Source of the DNA: Nitrosomonas sp.
GTDB taxonomy: Bacteria > Pseudomonadota > Gammaproteobacteria > Burkholderiales > Nitrosomonadaceae
DNA length: 59,490 bases
NCBI RefSeq assembly: GCF_019752415.1
Contig: NZ_JAIEME010000066.1
Coordinates: 1-59,490 of the forward strand
Direction of reading: 5' to 3'
Shown piece by piece: positions 28,763 through 44,829 of this stretch; position 1 is the first letter of the stretch, and every line of letters starts with the position of its first letter. Under the pieces are notes generated by a model. The model saw only the letters and a program-made list of their open reading frames with translations, was not told the origin of the DNA and searched no databases. The translations under genes were made by a program, and so were the position numbers.

Positions 28763-28971
28763 CTGATTTATCGGTTATAGCCAGAGCAAATTCCTCCCCC
28801 CCGATGCATAAGTAGACAGACTTCTTCATTCACAATACATAAACAGACAATATTGCCCTTCTTTTTCAATAGAAGATTTCTGCCTGGAGCTGTTAAAGTG
28901 ATCATCCATTTATCAGAAACTATTTATTAACATGGGCAGTTCAAATAATTGCTGGTTTGGTTAATAACTTT

Positions 28972-30819
28972 ATGACATTTAAGTCACGTTTACTCAGTTC
29001 GCTACAAAAATTTTCTTCATCGCCGGAGGTGCCGCATGACGAAGAAATTGTTGCGCCTGCCGACGAGCCACAATTAAACGATGTATCGAATTCCGTTCAA
29101 CAGTTTGCATCGAGTGATGAAATTAAACAACTATTGGATACGGCTTATCGTGAACGATTAAGTGCGGAGGACCGGGCAATCAAGGAGGCGCATAAGCGGA
29201 TTGAAGCAGAAAACATCGCGAAAGTAACTGCTGAAGCGAGGATCCGAGTCGAGGCCAATGCCAGAATTGCGGCAGAAACAAGAATCCAGGCTGAAGCGGT
29301 TGCCACTGATCAAGCCAGAACCCGAGCTAAAACTGAGGCTTTGGCAATCAGAGAGGCCAATGCCCGGCGGGAATTTGAAATAAAAGCCAGGCAGCTTGCA
29401 GAAGAGAAGATTAAAGCTGAGAAATCCTTAAATGCGCTATTGGAAGCCAAAATCAAAGCAGAAGCTTCGATTGTTGAGAAAATGCAGAAGCGCGTTGAAC
29501 AAGAAGCTGCCGCTTTGGACAAGGCGCATGCGACCACATTGAAAGAAAATGAAGCTGCTGAAGCTGCAATGCATCGAGCCAAGGTAGCCGATGAAGCTCG
29601 CTTGCTTGCACTGGCTGCGATAGAGGCAGAGACACATGCAGCAATGCTCGCCAATGCAAAAATTCAGGAGACGCAAAAAACTATAGCATTGGCTAAAGCT
29701 CAAGAAGAAGCTGAAAAGCAAATCATTGAGGAAATGCAAGTTCGCTCGCAAATAGAAGCGCAAACTCTAGCTCAGACTACTGAACGTCTGGATGCAGAGA
29801 TGCGGGCAAAAGAAATGGAAGAGGATAGACTGAAAGCCGAAGCTGCTGCGGTGCAAGCAGCGATAGAAAAAGCCGAAGCTGAAGCGATCGCAGCAGAGCA
29901 GGCGAGAAAAAGAGCTGAATTAGATACCCAAGCGACTTTTGCAGCACGCGATAAAACAAATGCGGAGAGAGTCGCAGCTGAAATGGCGGAATCCATTCTT
30001 GCTAAAGAAAGTGCAATCGCTGATGCAATCAAGGCTCGTCTCGTTGCAGAGTCTGAGTTGCTGGAAGAAGCTGATCAGCGAATGCGGATAGAAACTGAAG
30101 CGTTGGCTGCTGCAGAAGCAGCCCTGCGCGCTGAAAAAGAAGCCAAAACGGTTGCAAGTGAGAAGAAGAAAGCGGAAGTCAACGCGAGCAAAGAGTACCA
30201 GAAACGTATTAAGGCAGATGAAGAAGCTATTAAAGAAGCGGAGGCGCGTGCAGAAATAGAGAAAGCTGCAAGGAAGGCAGCGAAGAGCAAGGCGGAAGCT
30301 GAAATAAGATTGAGAACTGCCGCGGAGGAAAAAACCAAAGTAGATACGCTTGCTGCACAAGAAACAAATGTTCAAGCAGATTTGGAGCAACGCTTGCTGG
30401 AAGATGCAGAGATTCGTGCCAAAGCGATAGCCGATGCAAAACGAGCTGTTGTTGAGCGCCTCGAGATTGAGCAAAAAATCACAGGATTAGCAATTACTAG
30501 AGCACAAGCAAAAATTATCGCTGCCAATAAAGCCAAAGCGCAACTTGAAGCAGAAAAAACTGCTACTAGAGTTGCATTGGAAAAAGCCAGAACCGAATCG
30601 GCCGCGCTTGCCGCCATGCAGGAGCGCATAGCACTGGAATCCAAAGCGCTGGAAGCTGCGGCAGCCCGGGAAGCTGTTGAAGTTATGGCTAAGGAGGCAT
30701 TGTTTGCGCGTTCCCAAGCTGATAAAGAGGCTACCGCCGCGGCAACTGTGAGAATACGAGCAGAAATTGCTGCCGCAGAACATTCTCGTAACAGGGTTGC
30801 TTCAAGCACTAAGACTTAA
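28972..30819 (+). CDS. Long coiled-coil protein built of 40 exact-length 14-residue repeats
   Basis: I do not recognise this protein. The ATG at 28972 is chosen over an in-frame TTG at 28957. Residues 1-53 are a Ser/Glu/Pro-rich head without signal peptide or membrane segment. Residues 54-613 divide into exactly 40 units of 14 residues with no insertion or deletion. The consensus is x-A-x-x-x-A-x-x-R/K-I/A/L-x-A-E-x. Units include RAIKEAHKRIEAEN, NARIAAETRIQAEA and IAAEQARKRAELDT. Fourteen residues equal two heptads, so a very long unbroken coiled-coil rod (about 80 nm if fully helical) is expected. Only the two residues KT follow the last unit, and the TAA stop overlaps a transposon-end-like sequence, so the C-terminus may be cut. 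It follows the fliR operon after about 210 bp, but a flagellar role is only a guess; a cytoskeletal or scaffold role is equally possible. Confidence 0.8.
   Translation: MTFKSRLLSSLQKFSSSPEVPHDEEIVAPADEPQLNDVSNSVQQFASSDEIKQLLDTAYRERLSAEDRAIKEAHKRIEAENIAKVTAEARIRVEANARIAAETRIQAEAVATDQARTRAKTEALAIREANARREFEIKARQLAEEKIKAEKSLNALLEAKIKAEASIVEKMQKRVEQEAAALDKAHATTLKENEAAEAAMHRAKVADEARLLALAAIEAETHAAMLANAKIQETQKTIALAKAQEEAEKQIIEEMQVRSQIEAQTLAQTTERLDAEMRAKEMEEDRLKAEAAAVQAAIEKAEAEAIAAEQARKRAELDTQATFAARDKTNAERVAAEMAESILAKESAIADAIKARLVAESELLEEADQRMRIETEALAAAEAALRAEKEAKTVASEKKKAEVNASKEYQKRIKADEEAIKEAEARAEIEKAARKAAKSKAEAEIRLRTAAEEKTKVDTLAAQETNVQADLEQRLLEDAEIRAKAIADAKRAVVERLEIEQKITGLAITRAQAKIIAANKAKAQLEAEKTATRVALEKARTESAALAAMQERIALESKALEAAAAREAVEVMAKEALFARSQADKEATAAATVRIRAEIAAAEHSRNRVASSTKT
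29131..30810 (+). repeat. 40 tandem 42-bp coding units (14-residue coiled-coil repeat)
   Basis: The 1680 bp encode residues 54-613 in 40 units of exactly 42 bp. The units are diverged at the DNA level, so this is an old internal amplification kept in register by selection, not a recent tandem duplication. The strongest positions are Ala at 2, 6 and 12, a basic residue at 9 and Glu at 13. The last two units are the most degenerate. Confidence 0.8.
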
Positions 30820-30830
30820 GGAAGCTCTGA
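30819..30830. repeat. Possible remnant of the TA-flanked terminal inverted repeat
   Basis: AGGAAGCTCTGA follows a TA dinucleotide (30817-30818). It differs at one of 12 positions from the end of the MITE at 48855, and resembles the end at 59363. It lies between the coiled-coil gene and an IS110 remnant. With only 12 bp matching, the identification is tentative. Confidence 0.35.
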
Positions 30831-30849
30831 TTGCGGCTTACGCCGCGCA

Positions 30850-31712
30850 AAGTTTTTCTACTCAAAGTGTTACAAACCAGCGCACTCCTTTGCTGGCATG
30901 GCTGAAATCTCTATCCACAGGCAGCCGCATCGGCCTGGAATCCACGGATGGTTATCACGAATTGCTGGTCGATCTGGCACACGCGCAAGGCCATGTCGTA
31001 TTCCTGCTCAATCCGTTGGATACCAAGCACTATGCCCGCGCCATAGGTAGCCGTGCCAAAACAGATCGGGTGGATGCCGGCTCATCGCTCAAGAACATAC
31101 GCCCTTACACACCCCCTAACAGCCGATTAGCGCAAGCTGGATCGCATGATCCCCGGCGGTGCGCCAATATTGTTTGCATCAAAAGCTCGCTCACGCTGAC
31201 GATGAGCAACCTGAGTGGTTTTGCCGCCGAACTCAAAGCTGTCTCGAACAAGCTTGATGCCCTGATTGCCAAGATCGATTCCACCATGACCGCGATTGCG
31301 GCGCATTCCCCGCAACACAAGGAAGCGCAACAGCGTTTGCAAACCATTGCAGGTGTCGGCCCCGTGGTGGGCATGGCGCTGACCAATACGTTGGAGCGCG
31401 TGCCTTTCCGCAATGCGGATGCATTCGTCGCATTCACGGGCTTCGACCCCGGAGCCAACGACTCCGGCAATAAGATAGGCCGCAGGCGCCTATCCAAAAG
31501 CGGCCCCGCGGAGTTGCGTCGCTTGCTGTTTGACGCTGCAATGGCCGCCGCCAAGTCCAAGGCTTGGAAGTCTATCTATGAGCATTACCGCGCCCATGGC
31601 TGGACTACCCCAGGCACTGGTAATCATCGTCCGCAAAATCGCCCGCTCAGCCTGGTCTATTCATCATTACCATTCAATTTTCGACCTGGAAAGTATTACA
31701 AAAAATGCTTGA
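30850..31712 (+). pseudogene. IS110-family transposase remnant, 5'-truncated and frameshifted
   Basis: The frame reads TPLLAWLKSLSTGSRIGLES, HAQGHVVFLLNPLDTKHYAR and AKTDRVDA, then a damaged stretch (31080-31180). It recovers with LTLTMSNLSGFAAELKAV and the C-terminal domain AGVGPVVGMALTNTLERVPFRNADAFVAFTGFDPGANDSG. At about 31601 the frame shifts, and the tail LPQALVIIVRKIARSAWSIH...FDLESITKNA is read in another frame to 31712. The N-terminus with the first catalytic Asp is missing, so it is inactive. A REP-like half-palindrome (CCTGTCGAAGGA) follows at about 31769. Confidence 0.8.
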
Positions 31713-31861
31713 CGCGAACCATAGATTCTCACCACGAACGTAATCAATATATTATCATTCGTCCTAAGCCTGTCGAAGGACTTAATCAGAATTTCCTTAA
31801 CAATCAGATAAATTGGTTGTAGAAACGGAAGTGGTAGATCTGCCGTCCGATAGATCAAAGA

Positions 31862-32986
31862 TTAAAGTGTTTGGCGCAGTGGTGTGTTAAAATTGTTTGC
31901 CCATTCAAGCACTTCTTTGTAGTTTCCGCTGAAAATTACCGATTCTTTGTTTTTCATTATTTGATATGCATACATCGGATCATAATACTCAGCAAGTAAA
32001 TGGCTTATCCAAGCCTCGTGGTTATGAATATTTCCTGTATTCAATTGATCTGTCAAAGCCTTTGTCATGAGGTTATGTATATATTTATAGCGTTCCGATC
32101 CCAGTCGTTTCTGAATCCGGAATAGACTGCTGTGAAGATAAGCGCTGAAATATTCAAAACCATGCTCATTATGTTTCATCTGAAAAGCCGTCAGCATATC
32201 CGTAATATATTCTTGTAAAATCCGTGAAATGCGAGATTCCAATGGCATTTCTATTAGCGCTAAAGGAGAGCGTCGCATAGTTTTGAATAAGGTCTCCGGG
32301 ATCGCAATAGTTCCAATATTTCTACTCTCATCTTCAACAAAAAGTGTATTTTTACTAGGCGTAGCATAAGTCATACGCAACAAATCAATGGCTAATGTGT
32401 GCTCAAAATCGGATTGAGTGGGCTGTTGATTAACTGTATCGCCAAAACTCGAGCCGCGATGCATGGCATGCTTTTCTAAATCGATACTAGCGGCAATTTC
32501 ATTAATCAGAAGCGTTTTAGCGACACCTGTTTTTCCACCTATCCGGATCATGGAAAGATTTATGGTCGCTTCATCGATCGCCTGCATGAGGTATCGCCTG
32601 AGTGCTTTATAACCGCCAACAATTAACGGTACAGCAATGCCCGTTTCATTGATCCATTGACGTGCTAGATGTGAACGCATCCCACCGCGCCAGCAGAAGA
32701 TATGTGTATCGGGATTGTTAGTTACAAAATCCCGCCAATGCTGAATGCGATTTTGCTTTAGCTCACCACACACCAAGTTGTGACCTAGTTGAAGGGCAGC
32801 TTGTTGCCCTTTTTGTTTATAGCAAATTCCAACTAAACGACGCTCATGGTTATTTAGAATGGGGAGGTTGAATGAATTTGGTAAACTACCTTTGGAGAAT
32901 TCATCTTCAGAACGAACATCCAGGAATGGGATATCGTGCATAAATAAATTATGAAATTGATCAGCGCTGACTAAGAGATCTGACAT
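31862..32986 (-). CDS. mnmH: tRNA 2-selenouridine/geranyl-2-thiouridine synthase MnmH (SelU)
   Basis: The 374-residue protein has an N-terminal rhodanese domain (FLDVRSEDEFSKGSLPNSFNLPIL) with active-site Cys in IFCWRGGMRSHLARQW (about residue 95). A P-loop domain follows (IRIGGKTGVAKTLLINEI), then the family segments HRGSSFG and VEDESRNIG. MnmH replaces the sulfur of 2-thiouridine at the wobble position of Lys/Glu/Gln tRNAs with selenium, using selenophosphate. The P-loop has GKTGVAKT, with Ala where Gly is common before Lys-Thr. The partner selD lies 5.5 kb away on the same strand, with the sphingolipid-like operon between. Confidence 0.9.
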   Translation of the reverse strand: MSDLLVSADQFHNLFMHDIPFLDVRSEDEFSKGSLPNSFNLPILNNHERRLVGICYKQKGQQAALQLGHNLVCGELKQNRIQHWRDFVTNNPDTHIFCWRGGMRSHLARQWINETGIAVPLIVGGYKALRRYLMQAIDEATINLSMIRIGGKTGVAKTLLINEIAASIDLEKHAMHRGSSFGDTVNQQPTQSDFEHTLAIDLLRMTYATPSKNTLFVEDESRNIGTIAIPETLFKTMRRSPLALIEMPLESRISRILQEYITDMLTAFQMKHNEHGFEYFSAYLHSSLFRIQKRLGSERYKYIHNLMTKALTDQLNTGNIHNHEAWISHLLAEYYDPMYAYQIMKNKESVIFSGNYKEVLEWANNFNTPLRQTL

Positions 32987-33458: not shown

Positions 33459-35282
33459 TTGAGTTCGACAATAACCAAGTTGAACGCTCCGCTAACGCAA
33501 GCGTTTGATTCTCAACCTTCAAGCGAATTACAATTAATACCGACACCAACACTCAATACACTAACTCAGCAGTTAGCGGGCTTTGATACCCTAACCAGCG
33601 CTTTAGAATATGCGGCGGAGGGAATAACGGGGTATAACTTTTATGACGCGAAGGGTAACTTACGTTCGATTCTGCCATACAGTACGCTTAGACAGAATGC
33701 TCGTATCTTTGCGCAACGTTTATTTGGTTTTGGTTTGTCCCGTGGTGGTCGGGTAGCAATCATTGCTGATACCTCTCCAGAGTTTGTCGAGTTGTTTTTT
33801 GCATGTCGCTATGCTGGTTTGGTGCCTTTTGCAATGCCAATTCCAGTCAACCTCGGTAGCCATGCAATTTATGTTCAGCAATTAAGAGGTATGCTTGAAA
33901 GCAGTCAGGCAAGTATTGCGCTGGCGAATATTGACTATATTAATTTTCTGGAAGAGGCTGCAGGAGAAACAACCTGTATACAGTGGGTAGGGACACCGGA
34001 AAAATTAAGCGAGCTACCTGCGATGGATGTTGAGCCGCTGCCTAATTATCCTGATGAAACTGCGTACTTGCAATTTACCTCAGGTAGTACGCGTACACCG
34101 AGAGGAGTGGTTATTACTGAACGAGCCTTGATGTGTAATTTACAAGGTATTGTATGTAATGGATTGGAAATTAAACCTGACGATCGTTCCGCTTCTTGGC
34201 TACCCTTTTATCATGATATGGGATTGGTTGGGTTAGTTCTGGCACCAATGGTCACACAAATCTCTGTTGATTATCTGGCGACGCGGGATTTTGCAATTCG
34301 ACCTTTGCAATGGTTACGGTTAATAAGTCGCAACCGCTGTACCGTTGCATTCAGTCAACCTTTTGGTCTTAAGCTCTGTACGTTACGTGTAAGGGAATCT
34401 GACCTCGAAGATCTGAATCTTAGTAGTTGGCGTGCTGCTGGCATTGGTGCAGAAATGATACGGCCAGAAACTTTGAGAAATTTTGCGGAAAAATTCGCAT
34501 CGGCAGGTTTCGATGAGAATGCTTTTTTGCCTTGCTACGGTCTTGCGGAATCCACACTTGCCGTAACCTTTTCAAAAATTGGCAAAGGTTGTAGAAGTAT
34601 ACAAGTGGATAGTAAGGCGCTGATCGATAAACGAATGGCTGTTCGATTGCAAGCGGATGGGCGGAAACAAAATGAATTTGTAAATTGTGGACGTCCTTTG
34701 CCTGGACATACAGTGAAGATAGTTGATGAAGATGGTCAGCAATTGTCAGAAATGATGGTTGGTAGTGTTTTAGTACATGGCGATAGCGTGATGAAGGGCT
34801 ACTATAACAATCTAGAAGAGACTAAAAAAGCGCTTAAATCCGGTAATTGGTTGGATACAGGAGATATTGGATTCCTGTTTGAAGGTGATTTGTTTATAAC
34901 CGGACGCCGTACAGATGTTATTATTGTTAATGGTCGCAATATCCGTGCCCAAGACATAGAAGAGTTAGCCGAACAGCAACCGGAAGTTAGGTCACGTGAA
35001 GCTTCTGCATTTGGAGTGAATGATGAAGATGGAACAACAACGATTGTTTTAGTCATTGAATGTAGGCTCACCTCCGTGACAGAGCGCCAATCACTGACGA
35101 CTAGATTGCAACAGCTTGTTTATATGGCATTTGGTGTTAATTCTATCGTGGAATTAGTTCCACCTCATACCTTACCAAGGACCTCATCTGGAAAGCTCTC
35201 ACGTTTTGCAGCAAGGCAAGGTTATATTCAGAGAGCAAATCTGGCAGGTCAATTGTCTTTTGTGGAATTAGGTGACAGATAA
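33459..35282 (+). CDS. Fatty acyl-AMP ligase / acyl-ACP synthetase of a sphingolipid-type operon
   Basis: A TTG at 33459 with GAGGGG just upstream gives 607 residues. It is an adenylate-forming enzyme of the FAAL/FadD32 type: AYLQFTSGSTRTPRGVVITERAL (P-loop), SWLPFYHDMGLVG, FLPCYGLAESTLAVTFSK, WLDTGDIGFLFEGDLFITGRRTDVIIVNGRNI, and a C-terminal Lys in LPRTSSGKLSRFA. It activates a fatty acid as acyl-AMP and would load it on the ACP encoded two genes downstream. It is 6 bp before the SDR gene. The combination with SDR, ACP and SPT matches the Caulobacter ceramide locus, where this protein is the acyl-ACP synthetase. Chain length preference is unknown. Confidence 0.85.
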   Translation: MSSTITKLNAPLTQAFDSQPSSELQLIPTPTLNTLTQQLAGFDTLTSALEYAAEGITGYNFYDAKGNLRSILPYSTLRQNARIFAQRLFGFGLSRGGRVAIIADTSPEFVELFFACRYAGLVPFAMPIPVNLGSHAIYVQQLRGMLESSQASIALANIDYINFLEEAAGETTCIQWVGTPEKLSELPAMDVEPLPNYPDETAYLQFTSGSTRTPRGVVITERALMCNLQGIVCNGLEIKPDDRSASWLPFYHDMGLVGLVLAPMVTQISVDYLATRDFAIRPLQWLRLISRNRCTVAFSQPFGLKLCTLRVRESDLEDLNLSSWRAAGIGAEMIRPETLRNFAEKFASAGFDENAFLPCYGLAESTLAVTFSKIGKGCRSIQVDSKALIDKRMAVRLQADGRKQNEFVNCGRPLPGHTVKIVDEDGQQLSEMMVGSVLVHGDSVMKGYYNNLEETKKALKSGNWLDTGDIGFLFEGDLFITGRRTDVIIVNGRNIRAQDIEELAEQQPEVRSREASAFGVNDEDGTTTIVLVIECRLTSVTERQSLTTRLQQLVYMAFGVNSIVELVPPHTLPRTSSGKLSRFAARQGYIQRANLAGQLSFVELGDR

Positions 35283-35288
35283 GGGCGC

Positions 35289-36203
35289 ATGCCAAAAATA
35301 GTAGCTGTAACTGGTGCTACTGGGTTCATTGGCAATGTACTAGTGCAGAAACTGGTTCGAGATGGATGGACAGTTCGTGCGCTCACACGGTTACATCGCT
35401 CATCCGATAGTAAGTCTATTCAATGGATTCAAGGAGATTTAGATAATTTAACTGCGCTACATCATTTAGTCAATGATGTAGCGTTTGTTATTCACTGTGC
35501 TGCAACAGTAAGAGGGAGCTCTTTTCAAGAATTCGCTCATACGAATATTGAAGGTACCAAAAATATTTTGTGCGCTATTGCTAAGCAGAAACAGTCTCCT
35601 CGCTTCTTGTTAATATCATCCTTGGCTGCGAGGCAACCAGAATTATCATGGTATACTCGAAGTAAGTATTTGTCTGAGATTCAGGTAACTGAATATTCAG
35701 AACAATTGCAATGGACTATTCTCAGGCCTACGGCTGTTTATGGTCCGGGAGATAAAGAACTAAAACCCCTCTTTCAAGCGATGCGCTACGGTTTTCTTCC
35801 CATAGTAGGAAAAATTCATAATCGATTTGGATTAATACATGTATATGATCTAGTTGCAGCTATTCAGATTTGGTTAGCTTCCAATCTATCGGTTAATGGA
35901 ATATTCGAACTTGATGATGGGATGTCAGGCGGGTATAGCTATCAGAGTTTGGCAATCCTAGCGCAGCAAGTGTGGAAGCACCCAGTACAGTGCATTCCTA
36001 TACCGGATTTTCTTATTCATGGTGTCGCAATATCCAATCTATGGCTGGCGCGGTTACTTCACTATTCTCCCATGCTGACTCCAGGAAAGGTTAATGAGTT
36101 ACAACATAACGACTGGGTATGTGACAATGCGCCATTGACCCGAGCTCTTCCGGCGTGGCAGCCGAGTATTCGTTTACAAGACGTTTTATCTGAAGTAATC
36201 TAG
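35289..36203 (+). CDS. Extended SDR (NAD-dependent epimerase family), ceramide reductase-like
   Basis: The 304-residue protein has the Rossmann motif VTGATGFIGNVLVQKLV at its start, VIHCAATVRG (about residue 70), and the catalytic Tyr-xxx-Lys in SWYTRSKYLSEIQV (about residue 125), followed by LRPTAVYGPGDKEL. In bacterial sphingolipid clusters an SDR of this family (CerR) reduces the 3-keto group of the ceramide intermediate. That assignment here is inferred from its place between the acyl-AMP ligase and the ACP/SPT genes. By sequence alone it could act on another ketone or sugar. Confidence 0.75.
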   Translation: MPKIVAVTGATGFIGNVLVQKLVRDGWTVRALTRLHRSSDSKSIQWIQGDLDNLTALHHLVNDVAFVIHCAATVRGSSFQEFAHTNIEGTKNILCAIAKQKQSPRFLLISSLAARQPELSWYTRSKYLSEIQVTEYSEQLQWTILRPTAVYGPGDKELKPLFQAMRYGFLPIVGKIHNRFGLIHVYDLVAAIQIWLASNLSVNGIFELDDGMSGGYSYQSLAILAQQVWKHPVQCIPIPDFLIHGVAISNLWLARLLHYSPMLTPGKVNELQHNDWVCDNAPLTRALPAWQPSIRLQDVLSEVI

Positions 36204-36233
36204 CTTTAAAATTTAACTACTCTGAAATAACTT

Positions 36234-36488
36234 ATGACTGAAAGTAATTACAATGAGATCATGCAATTACTCTGCGATCGATTAAGTGTTTTAACCAATT
36301 CTGATACTCAGATTACTCCTGACATGAACATGATTAGTCAGCTATCGATTGATTCTATTAAACTACTTAACTTGATTATGGAAATTGAAGACACTTTCGA
36401 TGTTTCAATTCCCATTAATGCACTGACAGATATTCACACCGTACGAGAATTGGCTGACTTAGTGCATAAAATAAAATCTGACTCATAA
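36234..36488 (+). CDS. Acyl carrier protein dedicated to the SPT pathway
   Basis: The 84-residue acidic four-helix protein has the 4'-phosphopantetheine attachment Ser in QLSIDSIKLLNLIMEIEDTFDVSI (Ser about residue 42, D-S-I instead of the common D-S-L), followed by a THR/VRELADLVHKI helix. Its stop overlaps the start of the SPT gene (ATAATG at 36486-36491), so translation is coupled. It is the likely acyl-thioester donor for the SPT, loaded by the acyl-AMP ligase of the operon, instead of CoA. Confidence 0.85.
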   Translation: MTESNYNEIMQLLCDRLSVLTNSDTQITPDMNMISQLSIDSIKLLNLIMEIEDTFDVSIPINALTDIHTVRELADLVHKIKSDS

Positions 36489-37669
36489 TGAATTTACTTG
36501 AAAAATTAGACGCAGCAGCAGTTGCAAGAAAATCACTTCTGCCGAATGGCGTGGGTGCTTTTGGTATTCCGATTGAGGAAGTTTTTTCGGCGACGGAAGC
36601 TAGGATTGGAGATCGCCGTGTATTGCTGCTTGGTACTAACAATTATTTGGGCTTAACTTTCGCACCGGAATGTATACGTGCAGCGCATGAAGCAATTGAT
36701 AAAGAGGGTACGGGTACCACAGGTTCTCGGATGGCTAATGGCAGTTATTTTGGTCACCGTGCCTTGGAAAGAGAATTCGCTGAATTTTATCAATGTAGCT
36801 CCGGCATTGTCTTTACTACTGGTTATCAAGCTAACTTAGGTACTATTTCTGGTCTAGTAGGTCCTGGCGATACTGTATTGATTGACGGGGATTCTCATGC
36901 AAGTATCTATGACGGTTGCATCCTCAGTGGCGCAGATATTATTCGCTTTAAGCATAATGATATGGTGGACATGGAGAAACGATTGCGTCGACTAGGCGAT
37001 CGTGTTGAAACAACGCTGATTATTGCTGAGGGAATCTATAGTATGCTGGGCGACCAAGCACCGTTAGCTGAAATTGTTAAATTAAAGAATGCATATAAAT
37101 GCATTCTGCTCCTCGATGAAGCACATTCATTGGGTGTATTGGGGGAAACTGGTCAAGGTCTCGTAGAAAAAACGGGTTTGTTAAAAGAAGTCGATTTTAT
37201 TACCGGAACTTTTAGCAAAAGTCTCTGTAGTATTGGTGGATTTTGTGTGAGCAATCATCCGCAACTTGAGCAGTTACGCTATATCAGTCATCCCTATATT
37301 TTTACAGCGTCACCGTCACCAGCAACGATAGCTTCAACGCGTGCGGCATTGGTTCTGCTGAGCAAAGGAAGTGATCTGCGCAAACAACTGTGGGCCAATT
37401 GTACACAACTTTATTCACAGCTCAAGGAAACTGGCTACCTGCTAGGTCCTGATCCAGGACCAGTAATTGCCGCCGTTCTTGATACGCCGCAACAGGCACT
37501 CCAGCTTTGGCAAAGCTTGCTCGAACATAATATTTATGTGAATTTGATTCTGCCGCCAGCTGCACCGGAAGGCAAATCGCTCGTACGATGCAGTGTAAAT
37601 GCCGCGCATACTCCAGAACAAATCAGATATGTGGGCGATACTTTTGCCAAGTTGCACAGCAAGATATGA
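36488..37669 (+). CDS. spt: Serine palmitoyltransferase-like alpha-oxoamine synthase
   Basis: This 393-residue PLP enzyme of the alpha-oxoamine synthase family has GTNNYLGLTF, GTGTTGSRMANGSYFGHRALEREFAEF, the ring-stacking His in IDGDSHASIYDGC, Asp and His in LLLDEAHSLGVLGE, and the Schiff-base Lys in GTFSKSLCSIGGF (about residue 240). The C-terminal NLILPPAAPEGKSLVRC matches the PPATP loop and carboxylate-binding Arg that distinguish bacterial serine palmitoyltransferases from BioF and KBL. It would condense L-serine with an acyl thioester to 3-ketosphinganine. The biotin alternative (bioF) is less likely given this loop and the operon partners. It is last in the operon. Confidence 0.82.
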   Translation: MNLLEKLDAAAVARKSLLPNGVGAFGIPIEEVFSATEARIGDRRVLLLGTNNYLGLTFAPECIRAAHEAIDKEGTGTTGSRMANGSYFGHRALEREFAEFYQCSSGIVFTTGYQANLGTISGLVGPGDTVLIDGDSHASIYDGCILSGADIIRFKHNDMVDMEKRLRRLGDRVETTLIIAEGIYSMLGDQAPLAEIVKLKNAYKCILLLDEAHSLGVLGETGQGLVEKTGLLKEVDFITGTFSKSLCSIGGFCVSNHPQLEQLRYISHPYIFTASPSPATIASTRAALVLLSKGSDLRKQLWANCTQLYSQLKETGYLLGPDPGPVIAAVLDTPQQALQLWQSLLEHNIYVNLILPPAAPEGKSLVRCSVNAAHTPEQIRYVGDTFAKLHSKI

Positions 37670-37833: not shown

Positions 37834-38481
37834 ATGAAATTAATGAAGGTGCTGGCATTAGCATTATTTTCTTTCTTATTTCAAAGCAATGTTTTTGGGA
37901 CAAGTATTGTATATAACGGGTTTGAGTGCCTAAATGCTGTAGATACAAATGACCCGACACCAAAAGGTACACCAGTACAGAGCAAATTTGAAGTCATACA
38001 AGATGCTGGGGATGGTATTTATCGATTAAGCTTAACTGGCGGTATTCCTCGCTTTAATAATAATCATGATGTATGCATCGATAATGCGACTGCGATCGGA
38101 TATTCAGGAATTCCTGCAGTAGATGGTTTGCCGCAACCTCTCGAAGCCATTCATGCAACTGCCTATTTTAATGGGCAGGCACTGATAATTGTTGTCAGTT
38201 CGTTGTATACAGATTTAAGTGGCAGAAGGAATCCATTTTCATCATTTAACACAAGCCTTGTCTTTGCTTTCACGAATACACTCATATTTGATTTTAATCC
38301 ACGAGCATCTTCATTCAGCTTGAAGAAAGTGATCCGCAACCGAGGATTCACTAATACCAGTGGCTCGACGAATTCAATAACCCCTTTCCTTGAGACAATC
38401 TTGCCATCTTTCAACGATGAAGTGCAAGACAAGCCCAAAGTTCTAACACCGATAGCCAGAATCGAATTTTTATTGGAATAA
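37834..38481 (+). CDS. Secreted protein of unknown function
   Basis: I do not recognise a family. The 215-residue product has a clear signal peptide (MKLMKVLALALFSFLFQSNVFG, cleavage near residue 22) and a mature domain rich in beta-prone segments with two Cys (GFECLNA and HDVCIDNA), which could form a disulfide in the periplasm. The last third is Arg/Lys/Ser-rich (NPRASSFSLKKVIRNRGF). It follows the spt gene by 165 bp on the same strand, so co-regulation is possible but not shown. It ends convergent to selD. Confidence 0.6.
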   Translation: MKLMKVLALALFSFLFQSNVFGTSIVYNGFECLNAVDTNDPTPKGTPVQSKFEVIQDAGDGIYRLSLTGGIPRFNNNHDVCIDNATAIGYSGIPAVDGLPQPLEAIHATAYFNGQALIIVVSSLYTDLSGRRNPFSSFNTSLVFAFTNTLIFDFNPRASSFSLKKVIRNRGFTNTSGSTNSITPFLETILPSFNDEVQDKPKVLTPIARIEFLLE

Positions 38482-38514: not shown

Positions 38515-40704
38515 TTAGTGATCTATTAATGTAATAAGTGAGTTAGTATTATTATATGGCGTGACACAGCCAATTTGCGCTGAAGTATAGCCAGCAGTGG
38601 AAAGTGCATGAAGACATTCATCGGTGCGCTCGGCGGGTATTCCAGCTAATAATCCCCCCGCAGTTTGCGGATCAAAGAGTAGAGGATAGCTTGGGTGTTG
38701 CCCAGTGTAATCTTGGCATCGGCTGGCTTGTTTATTGGCGGCGTAGAGTGTGCTTTGAATGCTTTGTAGGCTGCACTGTTGTGCGCCTTCCATGATTGGA
38801 ATGGCGTTTATTGATAGGGAGGCGCTGCATTGAGAAGCTAGTAGCATCTCCTGTAAATGTCCGAGTAGGCCAAATCCTGTTACATCGGTACAACTGCGCG
38901 CTGCACAAGAACGTAAGATGGTTGCTGCGGTCAGGCTACTCTGCAACATATAGGCCAATGCCTGATCAAGCCATAAACCCTTGCAGCGTGCAGTCATGTT
39001 AGCAGCAAGTAAAACACCGCTGCCGATAGGTTTGGTGAGAATTAAACTATCGCCGGGAGTTAGTCCAGATTTTGTCAGAGCTTCGCTTGATGAGAGTGTT
39101 CCGTTAACAGTTAGCCCGATAGCTATTTCGAGTCCTTCGCCACTATGTCCACCAATCAGCGCAGTGTTTTCAGTCTTCAAGGTTTTTAATACGCCTCGCA
39201 TCAAATGCAATAATGTTTCTTGCATAATAGGCTCGCTGCTATACGGGATAATTGCGGTCACCAATGCAGAATGGGGGATTCCACCCATTGCATAAATATC
39301 TCCTAAGCTATGAATTGCGGCGACACGACCCAGTAAATAGGGATCGTCGATGAAGCTTCTAAAGAAATCAACGGATTGTAACCATCGAGTATTGGCACGT
39401 ATATTAATAATTGCGGCATCATCCCCCGGGCCACTGGTGATATCCGGATGAGGTTGGATGTCCAGCTGAGACAAAACATTCTGTAATATATTGCTGCTTA
39501 CTTTTGCGCCACAACCACCGCATCGCATAGACTCTTTGGCATCGCTTGAGTTATCGGTGTTAACCATAGGTTGCGGATTGAAACGTGCCATAAAGGCGCG
39601 ATCAATGTGATTCTTCCAAACCCAAACCCACTTTCCGCGCGCAAATAGTGCGCCCCGAGAAGCGATCGCGTAACGTTCTCCTATCGTTATTAGGCTTAAA
39701 AAGCTTCGTTGCGGTTTAAAAGGCAAAAGCTGTCGATTCTCGAGCTGAGCGACAATATTTTTTGCCAGGATCGGGCCCTGGCGGACAGCATAAACGCCCG
39801 CTTTAGGTAATGGCAAAGGCATGAAAGCTGCGCTGTCGCCAGCAGCAAATATATCCGGATGCGAAATACTGCGAAGGTGCTGATCAACTTGAATGAAGCC
39901 TTGTCCGTCGCACTCAAGCCCGCTTTCTGCTAGCCAAGACTGTGCACTAGAATGTATGGCCCAGGCGGAAAAATCGTAATTCAGCGTTGTATTATCACTT
40001 AAAGCCAGTTGGTGCTCAGTAACGGAAATGACATGTTTTCCAAAGATTATGCGGATACCTAACGTTTGCAAGTGATTTTTAATAAATTCCTGCACGCGTT
40101 CATTGTGTGCACTGAGGACCTTTTGATCAGCGCAAACCAGAGTAAAGTTAGCATGAATAGCAGTCGTGTTGCAGAGCTTATAGCGCATAGCCAGGAGTAT
40201 TTCTACACCCGCGGCCCCACCACCGACTACGACAACACGCTTTGGTTGACGGGATGCTTGTGCTGATTCGAGCCACTGGCGCCAATTCTGCAAAAATTGT
40301 TTGATCGGTTTAATGGGGTGGCCATGTACCGTGGCGTTTTTGATTTCAGTGAGTGCGGGTTGAGACCCAACATTGATAGACAATAAATCGTACTGCAAGG
40401 ATGGGTATTGATGGCAGTATATCTGCCTTCCGACTGGATCGATACGTTGAACTTCACTGCAAACAAACTGCACGCCAGCCCACTGACACAGTTTTCGTAA
40501 ATCAATGTGACAATCTTCAAAAGTATAATGTCCAGCAATCAATCCAGGCAACATACCTGAATAAGGTGTGAGTGTATTATTGCTGATGAGTGTGACTCTG
40601 ATACCTGGGATTGGGCGCATTCCCAATTTTTTGATAACGGCGATATGGCTGTGTCCACCGCCAATTAGACGTAAATCTTTTTTATGTGGCGTTAAGCCTA
40701 TCAT
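38515..40704 (-). CDS. selD: FAD/NAD-dependent oxidoreductase fused to selenide, water dikinase (SelD)
   Basis: This 729-residue fusion starts with a pyridine nucleotide-disulfide oxidoreductase-like domain (about residues 1-375): LRLIGGGHSHIAVIKKLG, VVVVGGGAAGVEILLAMRYK, and HPDIFAAGDSAAF are dinucleotide-binding motifs. From about residue 390 comes SelD: CGGCGAKVSSNIL, GPGDDAAII, SVDFFRSFIDDPYLLGRVAAIHSLGDIYAMGG, GGHSGEG, TDVTGFGLLGHLQEM and FDPQTAGGLLAG. SelD makes selenophosphate from selenide and ATP. In the catalytic loop the essential Cys is kept while the second Cys of E. coli GCGCK is Ala. Such fusions are known in other bacteria; the oxidoreductase half may supply selenide. It works with MnmH. 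Confidence 0.9.
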   Translation of the reverse strand: MIGLTPHKKDLRLIGGGHSHIAVIKKLGMRPIPGIRVTLISNNTLTPYSGMLPGLIAGHYTFEDCHIDLRKLCQWAGVQFVCSEVQRIDPVGRQIYCHQYPSLQYDLLSINVGSQPALTEIKNATVHGHPIKPIKQFLQNWRQWLESAQASRQPKRVVVVGGGAAGVEILLAMRYKLCNTTAIHANFTLVCADQKVLSAHNERVQEFIKNHLQTLGIRIIFGKHVISVTEHQLALSDNTTLNYDFSAWAIHSSAQSWLAESGLECDGQGFIQVDQHLRSISHPDIFAAGDSAAFMPLPLPKAGVYAVRQGPILAKNIVAQLENRQLLPFKPQRSFLSLITIGERYAIASRGALFARGKWVWVWKNHIDRAFMARFNPQPMVNTDNSSDAKESMRCGGCGAKVSSNILQNVLSQLDIQPHPDITSGPGDDAAIINIRANTRWLQSVDFFRSFIDDPYLLGRVAAIHSLGDIYAMGGIPHSALVTAIIPYSSEPIMQETLLHLMRGVLKTLKTENTALIGGHSGEGLEIAIGLTVNGTLSSSEALTKSGLTPGDSLILTKPIGSGVLLAANMTARCKGLWLDQALAYMLQSSLTAATILRSCAARSCTDVTGFGLLGHLQEMLLASQCSASLSINAIPIMEGAQQCSLQSIQSTLYAANKQASRCQDYTGQHPSYPLLFDPQTAGGLLAGIPAERTDECLHALSTAGYTSAQIGCVTPYNNTNSLITLIDH

Positions 40705-41478: not shown

Positions 41479-41876
41479 ATTGATACATACTAAATTTCTA
41501 ATGAGTAGGGTATTTGCTTGATTCGCGATACTTGATGTTGTTTGTTTGTTTGGTTGGTTGCTTTAGCTGTTTAAAAATATTTGCCATAGGGAGTGTCCTG
41601 TTCTATAGTTAATCATAAAGATTGGATTAAAGCTGCCTCGTAATTATAGATTTATAGATGCTGAACATATCCATTGGTTGCGAATCTTTACCATAGTGTT
41701 TAAATTCCTTAGCATAAGATGAGTCTCGTGTTATAGAACCGACTGATTGCGTACTTAGTAATGTTTCCCAGATTAAATTTTAGTTAATTAATTTTAACGT
41801 GCTTTATTTTATTGTTTATTTTGCTAAGTAATATTTGTCATTAACTTGTTTTTGAAGTATTTTTGGAGGTTTGTTC
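41479..41876 (+). other. AT-rich spacer upstream of hpnH
   Basis: About 400 bp without a supportable gene. It presumably holds the promoter of the hopanoid operon; no confident -35/-10 pair was picked because many AT-rich hexamers compete. The ribosome site GGAGG at 41865-41869 fixes the hpnH start at the ATG at 41877, not the in-frame TTG at 41871. Confidence 0.4.
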
Positions 41877-42995
41877 ATGGGAGTTCCTTTACGTCAACAA
41901 ATTGCGGTTGGCAGTTATCTAATCAAGCAAAAGTTAAAAGGGGTTAAGAAATATCCGCTGGTGTTGATGCTGGAGCCATTGTTCCGTTGTAACCTGGCTT
42001 GTGCTGGATGTGGAAAAATCGCTCACCCCGAAGATGTTCTTGATCAGCGACTTTCTTACGATGAATGTATGCAGGCAGTAGACGAATGTGGCGCGCCGAT
42101 GGTTTCAATTCCAGGTGGTGAGCCATTGATACATAAAGAAATGCCACAAATTGTTGCAGGCATAATCAAACGCAAGAAATATGTTTACTTATGTACAAAT
42201 GCTCTATTGTTAAAGAAAAAGATAGATGACTACACACCATCACCTTATCTAACATTTTCGATTCATTTGGACGGGATGAAAGAGCGGCATGATGCTTCAG
42301 TTTGTCAGGATGGGGTTTTTGATCGCGCGGTTGAAGCGATAAAGCTAGCATTAGAGAAGGGATTTAGGGTCACGGTAAACTGTACGTTGTTTCAAGGCGA
42401 GACCCCTCAGGATGTGTCTGAATTCTTGGACTATGCGATGGAATTGGGTGTTGAAGCAGCAACAATTGCGCCAGGATTTAGCTATGAGAAAGCGCCGCAA
42501 CAAGATGTCTTTATAAAAAGCCAGGATACCAAGGTATTGTTTCGTGGCATTTTTGAATTAGGCAAAAAGCTGAAGCGAAAATGGAGACTAAATCATTCAG
42601 CACTTTATCTGGATTACCTGGCAGGAAACCAGGATTATGAATGTACGCCATGGGGTAACCCAACACGAAATGTTTTTGGATGGCAGAAGCCATGTTACTT
42701 GTTGTCGGATGAAGGCTATGCAAAGACTTTCAAGGAACTTCTTGATGATACACCGTGGGAAAAATACGGTACTGTCAATAATCCAAAATGTGCCCAATGT
42801 ATGGCGCATTGCGGCTATGAAGCTACAGCTGTTGAAGACACACTTCAGCGTCCATGGAAAGCACTAATAGCCTCGCTAAGAGGGCCAAGAACGACAGGCC
42901 CTATGGTGGCTGAGGCTACTCCAAAATGGACAAGCGAAGAGAATAAAATACCCAAGAAGCTCTCCGACATACCGGTGACATTGATTAACAAATAA
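41877..42995 (+). CDS. hpnH: Adenosyl-hopene transferase HpnH (radical SAM)
   Basis: The 372-residue protein has the radical SAM CxxxCxxC cluster in EPLFRCNLACAGCGKIAHP, then SIPGGEPLIHKEM and LTFSIHLDGMKERHD. It has an HpnH-type C-terminal Cys-rich segment with CTPWGNPTRNVFGWQKPCYLL and NPKCAQCMAHCGYEATAV. HpnH adds the 5'-deoxyadenosyl group to diploptene, the first step of side-chain (C35) hopanoid synthesis. It is the first gene of hpnH-hpnB-hpnM-hpnN in the same direction. The squalene-hopene cyclase gene is not in the window. Confidence 0.95.
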   Translation: MGVPLRQQIAVGSYLIKQKLKGVKKYPLVLMLEPLFRCNLACAGCGKIAHPEDVLDQRLSYDECMQAVDECGAPMVSIPGGEPLIHKEMPQIVAGIIKRKKYVYLCTNALLLKKKIDDYTPSPYLTFSIHLDGMKERHDASVCQDGVFDRAVEAIKLALEKGFRVTVNCTLFQGETPQDVSEFLDYAMELGVEAATIAPGFSYEKAPQQDVFIKSQDTKVLFRGIFELGKKLKRKWRLNHSALYLDYLAGNQDYECTPWGNPTRNVFGWQKPCYLLSDEGYAKTFKELLDDTPWEKYGTVNNPKCAQCMAHCGYEATAVEDTLQRPWKALIASLRGPRTTGPMVAEATPKWTSEENKIPKKLSDIPVTLINK

Positions 42996-43047
42996 TCGGC
43001 AATAAGGTTTTGATACTGGTTTATAGAATTTGCTACAAGTAAGAATA

Positions 43048-44178
43048 ATGGTGGAATTGGTATTGTATTTATCTCTGTTCGGTGTTGTATGTTGGTGCTT
43101 ATTGATACTGTTACCGTGGCGTCCTTGGAGTGTCCGTGAGAAAATTGAAACGCAAGGCATAGTAGATTCCGCTGAGACGCTGAGTGATATTACAGTATTA
43201 ATTCCAGCCCGTAACGAGGGGCCTTATATCCGGCATACGCTTAATGGCTTGCGAGCACAGAGCGAGAATTTACGTATCATTGTGATTGATGATCAATCGG
43301 CGGATGACACCGCAGATAAAGCTAAGTGCTGTGGTGCGCTTGTGCTATCTGGTACAGCGCCACCCGCTGGTTGGAGCGGGAAATTATGGGCGCTTGAACA
43401 GGGATTGCGTGAGATCAGAACACCCTACACGTTATTGTTGGATGCCGATATTGAGCTGGCTCCAGGGATTGTGATCGAATTACAGCAAAAAGCGCGCAAT
43501 GAAAATCTTGCCCTGGTATCATTGATGGCTGAGCCCCCTATGAAAAATTTCATAGAGCGTTTATTGATGCCTGCTTTTATATTCTTCTTTAAGTTGTTGT
43601 ATCCTTTTGGGCTAGCAAATAAGCTGACATCACGGGTTGCTGCGGCTGCAGGTGGGTGTATTCTAGTAGAAACACAAGCATTGCGTTCAGTTGGCGCATT
43701 TGCCAATTTGCACAATGCGCTGATTGACGACTGTACTTTGGCAACACACATCAAACGTTCAGGTTTGCGTATTTTTATTGGGCTGAGTCGTTCGGTTCGT
43801 AGTCATCGTGGTTATCAAGATTTAAAGCCGATTTGGGAAATGGTGGCTCGTACCGCTTTTACCCAATTAAGATACTCATTTGTTTTACTTGTCAGCTGCA
43901 CATTGATCATGATTTCTATGTTTTTGGCAGCACCGCTAGCATTTTTGCTGTTACCTGCTCAGGAAGCATATATAGTATGTACGCTAGCATGGATGGTTAT
44001 GTTTATTACCTACATGCCAACTTTAATTTATTATCAGCGTTCTCCACTTTGGAGTCTAGCACTGCCCGTAATTGGTACGTTGTACCTTGGCATGACTTGG
44101 ACATCAGCACTGCGGTACTGGCGTGGGGAACGCGCTTGTTGGAAAGACCGGCGCTATGAAAGTAATACGAACAATTAA
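43048..44178 (+). CDS. hpnB: Hopene-associated glycosyltransferase HpnB
   Basis: This 376-residue GT2 family membrane protein starts with a transmembrane segment (LVLYLSLFGVVCWCLLILLPW). The GT-A domain has TVLIPARNEGPYIRHTLNGL, VIDDQSADDTADKA, LLLDADIELAPG (DxD) and GGCILVETQALRSVGAF, then IDDCTLATHIKRSG. Several helices end the protein. The pattern and place match HpnB. Its exact role in hopanoid head-group or export is not settled in the literature. The ATG at 43048 is preferred to an in-frame TTG 18 bp upstream. It overlaps hpnM by 23 bp. Confidence 0.88.
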   Translation: MVELVLYLSLFGVVCWCLLILLPWRPWSVREKIETQGIVDSAETLSDITVLIPARNEGPYIRHTLNGLRAQSENLRIIVIDDQSADDTADKAKCCGALVLSGTAPPAGWSGKLWALEQGLREIRTPYTLLLDADIELAPGIVIELQQKARNENLALVSLMAEPPMKNFIERLLMPAFIFFFKLLYPFGLANKLTSRVAAAAGGCILVETQALRSVGAFANLHNALIDDCTLATHIKRSGLRIFIGLSRSVRSHRGYQDLKPIWEMVARTAFTQLRYSFVLLVSCTLIMISMFLAAPLAFLLLPAQEAYIVCTLAWMVMFITYMPTLIYYQRSPLWSLALPVIGTLYLGMTWTSALRYWRGERACWKDRRYESNTNN

Positions 44179-44782
44179 ACTGATTGGGTGGTGCCTGATA
44201 TTGGTGATGCTGTTACCAATTTCTGTTGCGTTGAGTTCATCCAGTTCAGAACCTGAGAACCCAGAGCAGGTTATAGAAAAATTACAATCTTCCTTGCTTC
44301 AGGTTATGCGCGAGGGCGATAAATTGAGTCACGAAGGGCGATTCAAATTCCTGGAACCGATTATTGATGAGTCTCATGATCTTAATCTGATTATCAGAAC
44401 AATATTGGGTGCAACATACTGGTCGCAGATGGGCAAAGAACAACAAGATTTGATCGTTGAGACATTTCGCAAGCTCAGTATTGCTACCTATGCTGGACGG
44501 TTTAATCAGTATGAGGGAGAGCAGTTCCAGATTGTAGAGCAGCGTGCTTTGCCGCGCGAACAAGTATTGGTGCGTAGCCGGTTAACTAAATCGGATGGCG
44601 GTACAGTAAATTTTGATTATGTATTACACCAAACAGACGGACGTTGGCGTATTGCCAATATCCTGTTTGATGGTGTGAGTGATCTCGCAATAAAACGTGG
44701 GGAGTATCGCGCTATTTTGCAACGGGACGGTTTCCAGGCATTGATTGATATGATTAAGGAAAAAATTGTTCTGACTCAGTAG
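44156..44782 (+). CDS. hpnM: Hopanoid-associated periplasmic MlaC-like protein HpnM
   Basis: The ATG at 44156 gives 208 residues with a signal peptide (IRTIKLIGWCLILVMLLPISVALS). An MlaC/Ttg2D (Tol_Tol_Ttg2) domain follows: VIEKLQSSLLQVMREGDKLSHEGRFKFLEPII, NLIIRTILGATYWSQMGKEQQDLIVETFRKLSIATYAGRFNQY, and VNFDYVLHQTDGRWRIANILFDGVSDLA. MlaC-like proteins carry lipids across the periplasm. Here it likely works with HpnN to move hopanoids to the outer membrane. The frame also opens 33 bp earlier, which would precede the signal peptide, so the later start is used. Confidence 0.9.
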   Translation: MKVIRTIKLIGWCLILVMLLPISVALSSSSSEPENPEQVIEKLQSSLLQVMREGDKLSHEGRFKFLEPIIDESHDLNLIIRTILGATYWSQMGKEQQDLIVETFRKLSIATYAGRFNQYEGEQFQIVEQRALPREQVLVRSRLTKSDGGTVNFDYVLHQTDGRWRIANILFDGVSDLAIKRGEYRAILQRDGFQALIDMIKEKIVLTQ

Positions 44783-44829
44783 AATTAATCATTCGATGAT
44801 TTCATTTTTTTCTGAAGGTTTTCTTAAAC

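Follow-up and report, generated by a model that had tools for sequence, protein, structure and literature searches.

In Caulobacter crescentus the entry genes of ceramide synthesis, CC_1165-1162, lie with the ceramide synthase gene cerS (CC_1154) in the cluster CC_1168-1152 for ceramide phosphoglycerate (CPG) and CPG2 (PMC9386255, PMC11324152). The Caulobacter synthetase AasR acylates the carrier protein AcpR specifically, and acyl-AcpR is the preferred substrate of the serine palmitoyltransferases (SPTs) of C. crescentus, Escherichia coli B and Sphingomonas wittichii; the enzyme of E. coli BL21 is reported to be active and to make 3-oxosphinganine (PMC9386255). For Nitrosomonas eutropha C91 the same paper lists Neut_0458 (aasR), Neut_0459 (epi/cerR), Neut_0460 (acpR), Neut_0461 (spt) and the CerS Neut_1100, so the operon has been published before for Nitrosomonas; of the 17 genes in the phosphosphingolipid region of Caulobacter, at least 13 have good orthologues in N. 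eutropha (PMC11324152). Here we analyse a contig of 59,490 nucleotides from Nitrosomonas sp. (NZ_JAIEME010000066.1, assembly GCF_019752415.1), hereafter the window, which carries the operon aasR-cerR-acpR-spt. The initial annotation, made from the letters of the window alone, took these genes for the entry steps of bacterial sphingolipid synthesis and remarked that sphingolipids are not a textbook feature of this group, a fair remark, although the set had already been listed for N. eutropha C91. What is new is the context of the operon, namely the locus of CerS, the apparent loss of lipid A genes and the link to the Lpt transport proteins, and this context makes it probable that the lipid stands in for lipopolysaccharide (LPS) in the outer membrane.

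The sphingolipid operon

The four genes are co-directional (Table 1), with gaps of 6 bp between aasR and cerR and 30 bp between cerR and acpR and a 1-base overlap of acpR and spt, exactly as the initial annotation had described them. Together they supply an SPT and the ligase, acyl carrier protein and short-chain dehydrogenase/reductase (SDR) of the known set, which supports the sphingolipid reading. As expected of the rhodobacterial set built around an acyl-AcpR-dependent SPT, acpR lies immediately 5' of spt and aasR is present in the genome. Spt scores above the cut-off of one curated SPT model (Table 1) and below the cut-offs of two further SPT models, which represent alphaproteobacterial and Bacteroidetes-type enzymes; its best matches in the PDB are SPTs (2x8u, E 6.7e-117, 394.1 bits). 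Identity to the E. coli BL21 homologues is 54% for Spt, 47% for AasR, 40% for CerR and 37% for AcpR, the last over 71 aligned residues. The PPAAPEG loop claimed for the synthase is present; the corresponding loop reads PPAAPAG in BL21 Spt and PPATPAG in the Sphingomonas-type SPT. By eye, a purine-rich stretch precedes the start codon of aasR.

The operon is widely conserved in the family. A match to Spt (E <= 1e-100) is found in 120 of 125 Nitrosomonadaceae genomes and in four of four genera, and in 98 of the 99 good genomes, defined by completeness of 90% or more and contamination of 5% or less. Twenty relatives from four genera were chosen from the 120 genomes with a match and fetched, and every one of them carries aasR-cerR-acpR-spt on one strand, which is more than chance would give. 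The motifs are kept as well: in an alignment of 22 rows (this genome, the 20 relatives and BL21) all rows retain the catalytic His, Asp/His, Lys and Arg of Spt, the TSGSTR and C-terminal SSGK motifs of AasR, the TGxxGFIG and YxxSK motifs of CerR and the phosphopantetheine Ser of AcpR. On gene identity, order, conservation and motifs, we predict with high confidence that this is the aasR-cerR-acpR-spt set of a ceramide/phosphosphingolipid pathway.

Table 1. Positions of the operon genes, their neighbours in the window and linked genes on other contigs
Feature	Position	Strand	Remarks
aasR, acyl-AMP ligase / acyl-AcpR synthetase	33459..35282	+	TTG start; NF006624 839.9 bits, cut-off 600
cerR, extended SDR, presumptive 3-oxosphinganine / oxidised-ceramide reductase	35289..36203	+	PF01370 (Epimerase)
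acpR, specialised acyl carrier protein	36234..36488	+	PF00550 (PP-binding); phosphopantetheine Ser in DSIK
spt, serine palmitoyltransferase (alpha-oxoamine synthase)	36488..37669	+	NF047599 566.8 bits, cut-off 500
cerS homologue	G000:C1:53304-54413		
Kinase and Tam41-like part, one open frame	L047:1313-3307		
Long Ala/Glu/Lys-rich open reading frame	28957-30819		
IS110-type transposase	30767-31822		
Rhodanese-type protein	31862-32986		
215-amino-acid protein	37834-38481		no Pfam match
Fused oxidoreductase/selenophosphate-synthase-like protein	38515-40704		
Hopanoid-like cluster	41871-47493		

CerS and a second gene run

The initial annotation had noted that the N-acyltransferase bCerS is not in the window. 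None is seen there, but a search of the whole genome finds a homologue on another contig (Table 1), with 49% identity to E. coli YghO (E 1.9e-126), and CerS matches occur in 82 of 85 genomes of the genus. The protein matches no Pfam family, and its assignment follows from the similarity to YghO. This cerS opens a run of genes on one strand: a MobA-like NTP transferase, two LptF/LptG-type permeases and, further on, a CDP-alcohol phosphotransferase, a diacylglycerol kinase (DAGK)-type kinase and a DUF2959 protein. Between the permeases and the CDP-alcohol phosphotransferase stand two genes that by eye resemble TrkA and TrkH. Of the 12 relatives fetched from the genus, all have both permeases and the CDP-alcohol gene after cerS, 10 have the NTP transferase, and 11 have the kinase, the Tam41-like part and DUF2959; the run is incomplete in three of the 12.

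The kinase protein carries a weak Tam41 match (E 0.022, under the Pfam cut-off) in its C-terminal half. When a second CTP_transf_1 protein was sought in this genome as a counterpart of CC_1161, only cdsA turned up. The Tam41-like part is a better candidate for that counterpart, though below the cut-off, and a PDB search with it returns only weak, unrelated matches. Kinase and Tam41-like part form one open frame here and in two of the 11 relatives that have them, and not in the other nine, a fusion among close kin that hints at consecutive steps. By analogy with the Caulobacter work on CPG and CPG2, an analogy of gene kinds and not of sequences, the run would serve headgroup addition and export.

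Lipid A genes and the Lpt bridge

LpxC (PF03331) has no match in any of 31 genomes of the genus, this one included; the profile finds its target in the controls E. coli, Caulobacter, Synechococcus and Bacteroides, a panel that includes no betaproteobacterium. The genes lpxD, lpxA and lpxB were sought at their usual cluster, which reads bamA-skp-lpxD-fabZ-lpxA-lpxB-rnhB in E. coli BL21 and rseP-bamA-skp-fabZ-rnhB here (BamA, FabZ and RnhB above their NCBIfam cut-offs, Skp below); at this one place all three are absent from our genome.

The gap extends to the relatives. A search of named genomes with our BamA, which is 97% identical to that of an N. ureae metagenome-assembled genome (MAG) and so points to Nitrosomonas, and with it to the Nitrosomonadaceae, for our genome, gave 157 loci, the best 80 of which were searched with E. 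coli LpxD, LpxA and LpxB. On the strength of record names and BamA identity, 69 were assigned to a Nitrosomonas group, which takes in loci labelled Nitrosomonas, Nitrosospira, Nitrosovibrio or Nitrosomonadaceae as well as four with vague or odd names (L094, L095, L099 and L122, BamA identity 72-85%), and 11 to sister lineages (Gallionellaceae, Sideroxydans, two Nitrotoga, Sulfuriferula, Sulfuricella, two Methyloversatilis and three MAGs without a genus name). Two loci of the Nitrosomonas group, L140 and L145, end before fabZ. None of the other 67 in this best-80 sample has lpxD, lpxA or lpxB at the bamA locus (E <= 1e-3); rnhB follows in 66 of them and is not found in the stretch of L090, and L150 lacks a skp match. 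In the sister lineages lpxD and lpxA are present at all 11 loci and lpxB at 10; at L146 the contig ends before it would be reached. When the loci are sorted by BamA identity alone, at 68% or more 66 of 66 informative loci are without the three genes, and at 61% or less 11 of 12 have lpx genes, the exception being L150 (58%, named Nitrosomonadaceae). The median distance from bamA to fabZ is about 660 bp in the Nitrosomonas group and about 1600 bp in the sisters. In earlier work only lpxK was reported for N. europaea and only lpxA for Nitrosospira multiformis (PMC3087551). Lipid A synthesis looks lost, on a search that took lpxD, lpxA and lpxB at their usual cluster only and left out LpxH, LpxK, LpxL and WaaA.

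The transport proteins are kept. LptD (PF04453) has a match in 124 of the 125 family genomes and in 99 of 99 good ones, the single miss being a genome that is 75% complete (G052). In our genome lptD is a frame of 744 amino acids, followed by genes resembling surA, pdxA and ksgA; the best NCBIfam models for lptD and surA are LptD and SurA, both below their curated cut-offs. The only two LptF/LptG matches of this genome are the permeases beside cerS. Among the 31 genus genomes 29 have LptF/LptG matches (the misses are G031 and G047), and in 28 of these 29 a match adjoins cerS, the two lying on different contigs in G050. The close relative G017 has a third match of the LptF/LptG family, away from the cerS run (G017:C1:1623171-1624190).

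The permeases themselves also side with the sphingolipid genes. The first reaches 174 bits with the spt-linked copy of BL21 and 57 with BL21 LptF, and the second 177 bits against the copy beside spt and 135 against the LPS-exporting copy, a modest margin; conversely, the BL21 copies beside spt score 193 and 198 bits against our pair, 84 against BL21 LptF and 128 against BL21 LptG. Our pair thus resembles the sphingolipid-linked E. coli copies more closely than the LPS-exporting ones, with BL21 as the sole reference and no LPS-type pair from a betaproteobacterium in the comparison. In Caulobacter, LptC2, LptF2 and LptG2 have been suggested as sphingolipid transporters, a suggestion not investigated in that work (PMC11324152).

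A probable outer membrane without lipopolysaccharide

By the substrates and reactions described for Caulobacter, E. coli B and Sphingomonas, AasR would activate a fatty acid as acyl-AMP and load it onto AcpR, and Spt would condense acyl-AcpR with L-serine to 3-oxosphinganine and CO2. CerS would then N-acylate the long-chain base and CerR reduce the product, giving dihydroceramide. Judging by gene context, the products of the second run probably attach a headgroup of the phosphoglycerate type and carry the lipid to the outer membrane.

One model accommodates the missing matches for lipid A genes, the retention of Lpt parts with their linkage to ceramide genes, and the near-universal presence of an SPT: a phosphosphingolipid would replace LPS in the outer leaflet and be the cargo of the Lpt bridge. 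The predicted pathway is probably the source of outer-leaflet lipid in an outer membrane that lacks LPS. In its full form the model takes the Nitrosomonadaceae to be natural LPS-free double-membrane bacteria: their common ancestor would have lost lipid A synthesis, with lpxD, lpxA and lpxB dropping out of a bamA-skp-fabZ-rnhB cluster that otherwise stayed intact, and their outer leaflet would consist of phosphosphingolipid made through the operon and exported by repurposed Lpt proteins, a sphingolipid-type LptF2/LptG2 beside cerS acting with the retained LptD. We regard this as likely, though well short of certain. Sphingomonas offers a precedent as an LPS-free sphingolipid producer (PMC10964400). 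For ammonia oxidisers, we infer the combination of absent LPS, Lpt parts and sphingolipids ourselves; a search of openly licensed papers has none that links the absence of LPS with sphingolipids in these bacteria among the matches listed, which is no proof of absence. PMC9386255 does not mention lipopolysaccharide or LPS, the string 'sphingo' does not occur in PMC3087551, and none of the three places naming eutropha in PMC11324152 mentions LPS.

The main competing explanation is that sphingolipids are a minor extra lipid, that the lipid A genes went in a separate genome reduction, and that LptD and LptF/LptG are remnants or carry some other cargo. Opiyo et al. saw genome reduction behind the genes that N. 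europaea lacks (PMC3087551). Several observations speak for such a view or otherwise weigh against the replacement of LPS. The hopanoid-type genes of the window are one, as hopanoids could help to fill the outer leaflet. Another is the genus genome G047, which at 91% completeness counts as good and in which spt, cerS, LptF/LptG and LpxC all go unmatched, with only a short, partial match for LptD; it implies either assembly holes or members that live without both lipids. The limited reach of the lpx search belongs here too. Against a minor lipid, however, stands the retention of Spt, CerS and LptD matches in nearly all the genomes searched, while lpx genes were not found, and so do the adjacency of LptF/LptG and cerS across the genus and the likeness of our pair to the sphingolipid-linked pair of E. 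coli. We therefore hold the competing explanation to be unlikely, though not negligible.

A further alternative concerns Spt itself. The Arg that precedes the PP loop in the Sphingomonas-type SPT is Leu in the Nitrosomonas enzyme, and the choice of amino acid is hard to read from sequence, so Spt might take alanine, glycine or cysteate and yield a 1-deoxy or sulfono long-chain base. BL21 Spt likewise has Leu at this place, however, and it is a published 3-oxosphinganine maker to which our Spt is more than half identical; the cysteate enzyme 28eh reaches only 175.5 bits, less than half the score of the SPT 2x8u. Use of another amino acid is accordingly very improbable.

That the synthase is BioF, glycine C-acetyltransferase (KBL) or 5-aminolevulinate synthase (ALAS), with neighbours from a fatty-acid or secondary-metabolite cassette, is scarcely credible: these enzymes share the alpha-oxoamine synthase family with Spt and give lower-scoring matches, but all three miss their curated cut-offs (BioF, TIGR00858, 319.5 against 426.45 bits; KBL, NF005394, 296.1 against 460; ALAS, TIGR01821, 207 against 338.55) while the SPT model exceeds its own, the operon order is identical to that of the known sphingolipid operon, and a separate gene of the same genome, L006, resembles BioF and clusters with the E. 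coli enzyme. The initial annotation had proposed profile comparison and phylogeny for the synthase and had allowed for a firm clustering with BioF; the profiles place it on the SPT side rather than with BioF, KBL or ALAS. The tree of 26 rows groups Spt with SPTs, apart from both BioF rows, one of which is L006, and owing to long-branch warnings we use it as support only. An Aminotran_1_2 profile search of the genome gives 11 matches, with loci listed for eight, one of which is spt; besides L006, five of the other seven look by eye like ordinary aminotransferases, and L005 has no long frame in the stretch read.

Should the replacement of LPS hold, an environmentally important family of nitrifiers would live without endotoxin and rely on ceramide lipids for its outer membrane, and a betaproteobacterial case of a sphingolipid in place of LPS would stand beside Sphingomonas. 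Two questions could then be put to the test: what lets some lineages lose lipid A, and whether sphingolipid can travel over the Lpt bridge. The LptD that almost all genomes retain, seemingly with no lipid A to transport, amounts to a natural experiment on Lpt cargo. The lipid is also a possible marker for Nitrosomonadaceae.

Gene neighbourhood

The operon is flanked by the rhodanese-type protein, presumably a tRNA 2-selenouridine synthase, and by the fused oxidoreductase/selenophosphate-synthase-like protein. Among the 20 fetched relatives this two-sided arrangement recurs only in L049 and L050; L055 has the rhodanese-type gene upstream of the operon, and L053-L056 have an oxidoreductase match on the upstream side. 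The 215-amino-acid protein that follows spt is found downstream of spt in five of the 20 (L049-L052 and L062). The hopanoid-like cluster, downstream of the operon, comprises a radical SAM protein with DUF3463, a family 2 glycosyltransferase and an MMPL transporter, which we take to be HpnH, HpnI and HpnN. On the other side, the IS110-type transposase lies next to the long Ala/Glu/Lys-rich frame.

Ammonia monooxygenase (AmoA/AMO, PF02461) has no match in our genome, whereas 18 of the 31 genomes of the genus have one; among close relatives, G017 has three matches and G045 and G084 have none. Ammonia oxidation by this bacterium thus rests on kinship, and collapsed repeats are our guess at why the match is missing.

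Comparison with known systems

The counterpart compared by sequence is E. coli BL21(DE3) (ECD_RS14825-14855). The order aasR-cerR-acpR-spt is the same, and the operon is flanked by yghO, the CerS gene, and at its opposite end by a pair of the LptF/LptG type; unlike our genome, BL21 has an lpxD-fabZ-lpxA-lpxB cluster and a separate lptF/lptG pair. N. eutropha C91, another species, is likened to ours by gene list and not by sequence: its gene numbers give the same four kinds in the same order, with CerS at a distance.

At the level of gene kinds Caulobacter has the same set, and there too LptF2/LptG2, kinase and nucleotidyltransferase genes are linked to the ceramide genes. Its ceramide genes occupy one region, whereas ours occupy at least two, and Caulobacter vibrioides matches the LpxC profile, unlike the Nitrosomonas genomes. 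Caulobacter CerR is reported to be periplasmic (PMC11324152), whereas the Rossmann motif of our CerR lies at residue 8, which leaves little room for a signal peptide. Sphingomonas, finally, combines sphingolipid genes with missing lipid A (PMC10964400, PMC11324152), a combination that is also probable here; its genes are scattered and it belongs to the Alphaproteobacteria (PMC11324152), whereas the operon described here belongs to a betaproteobacterial family.

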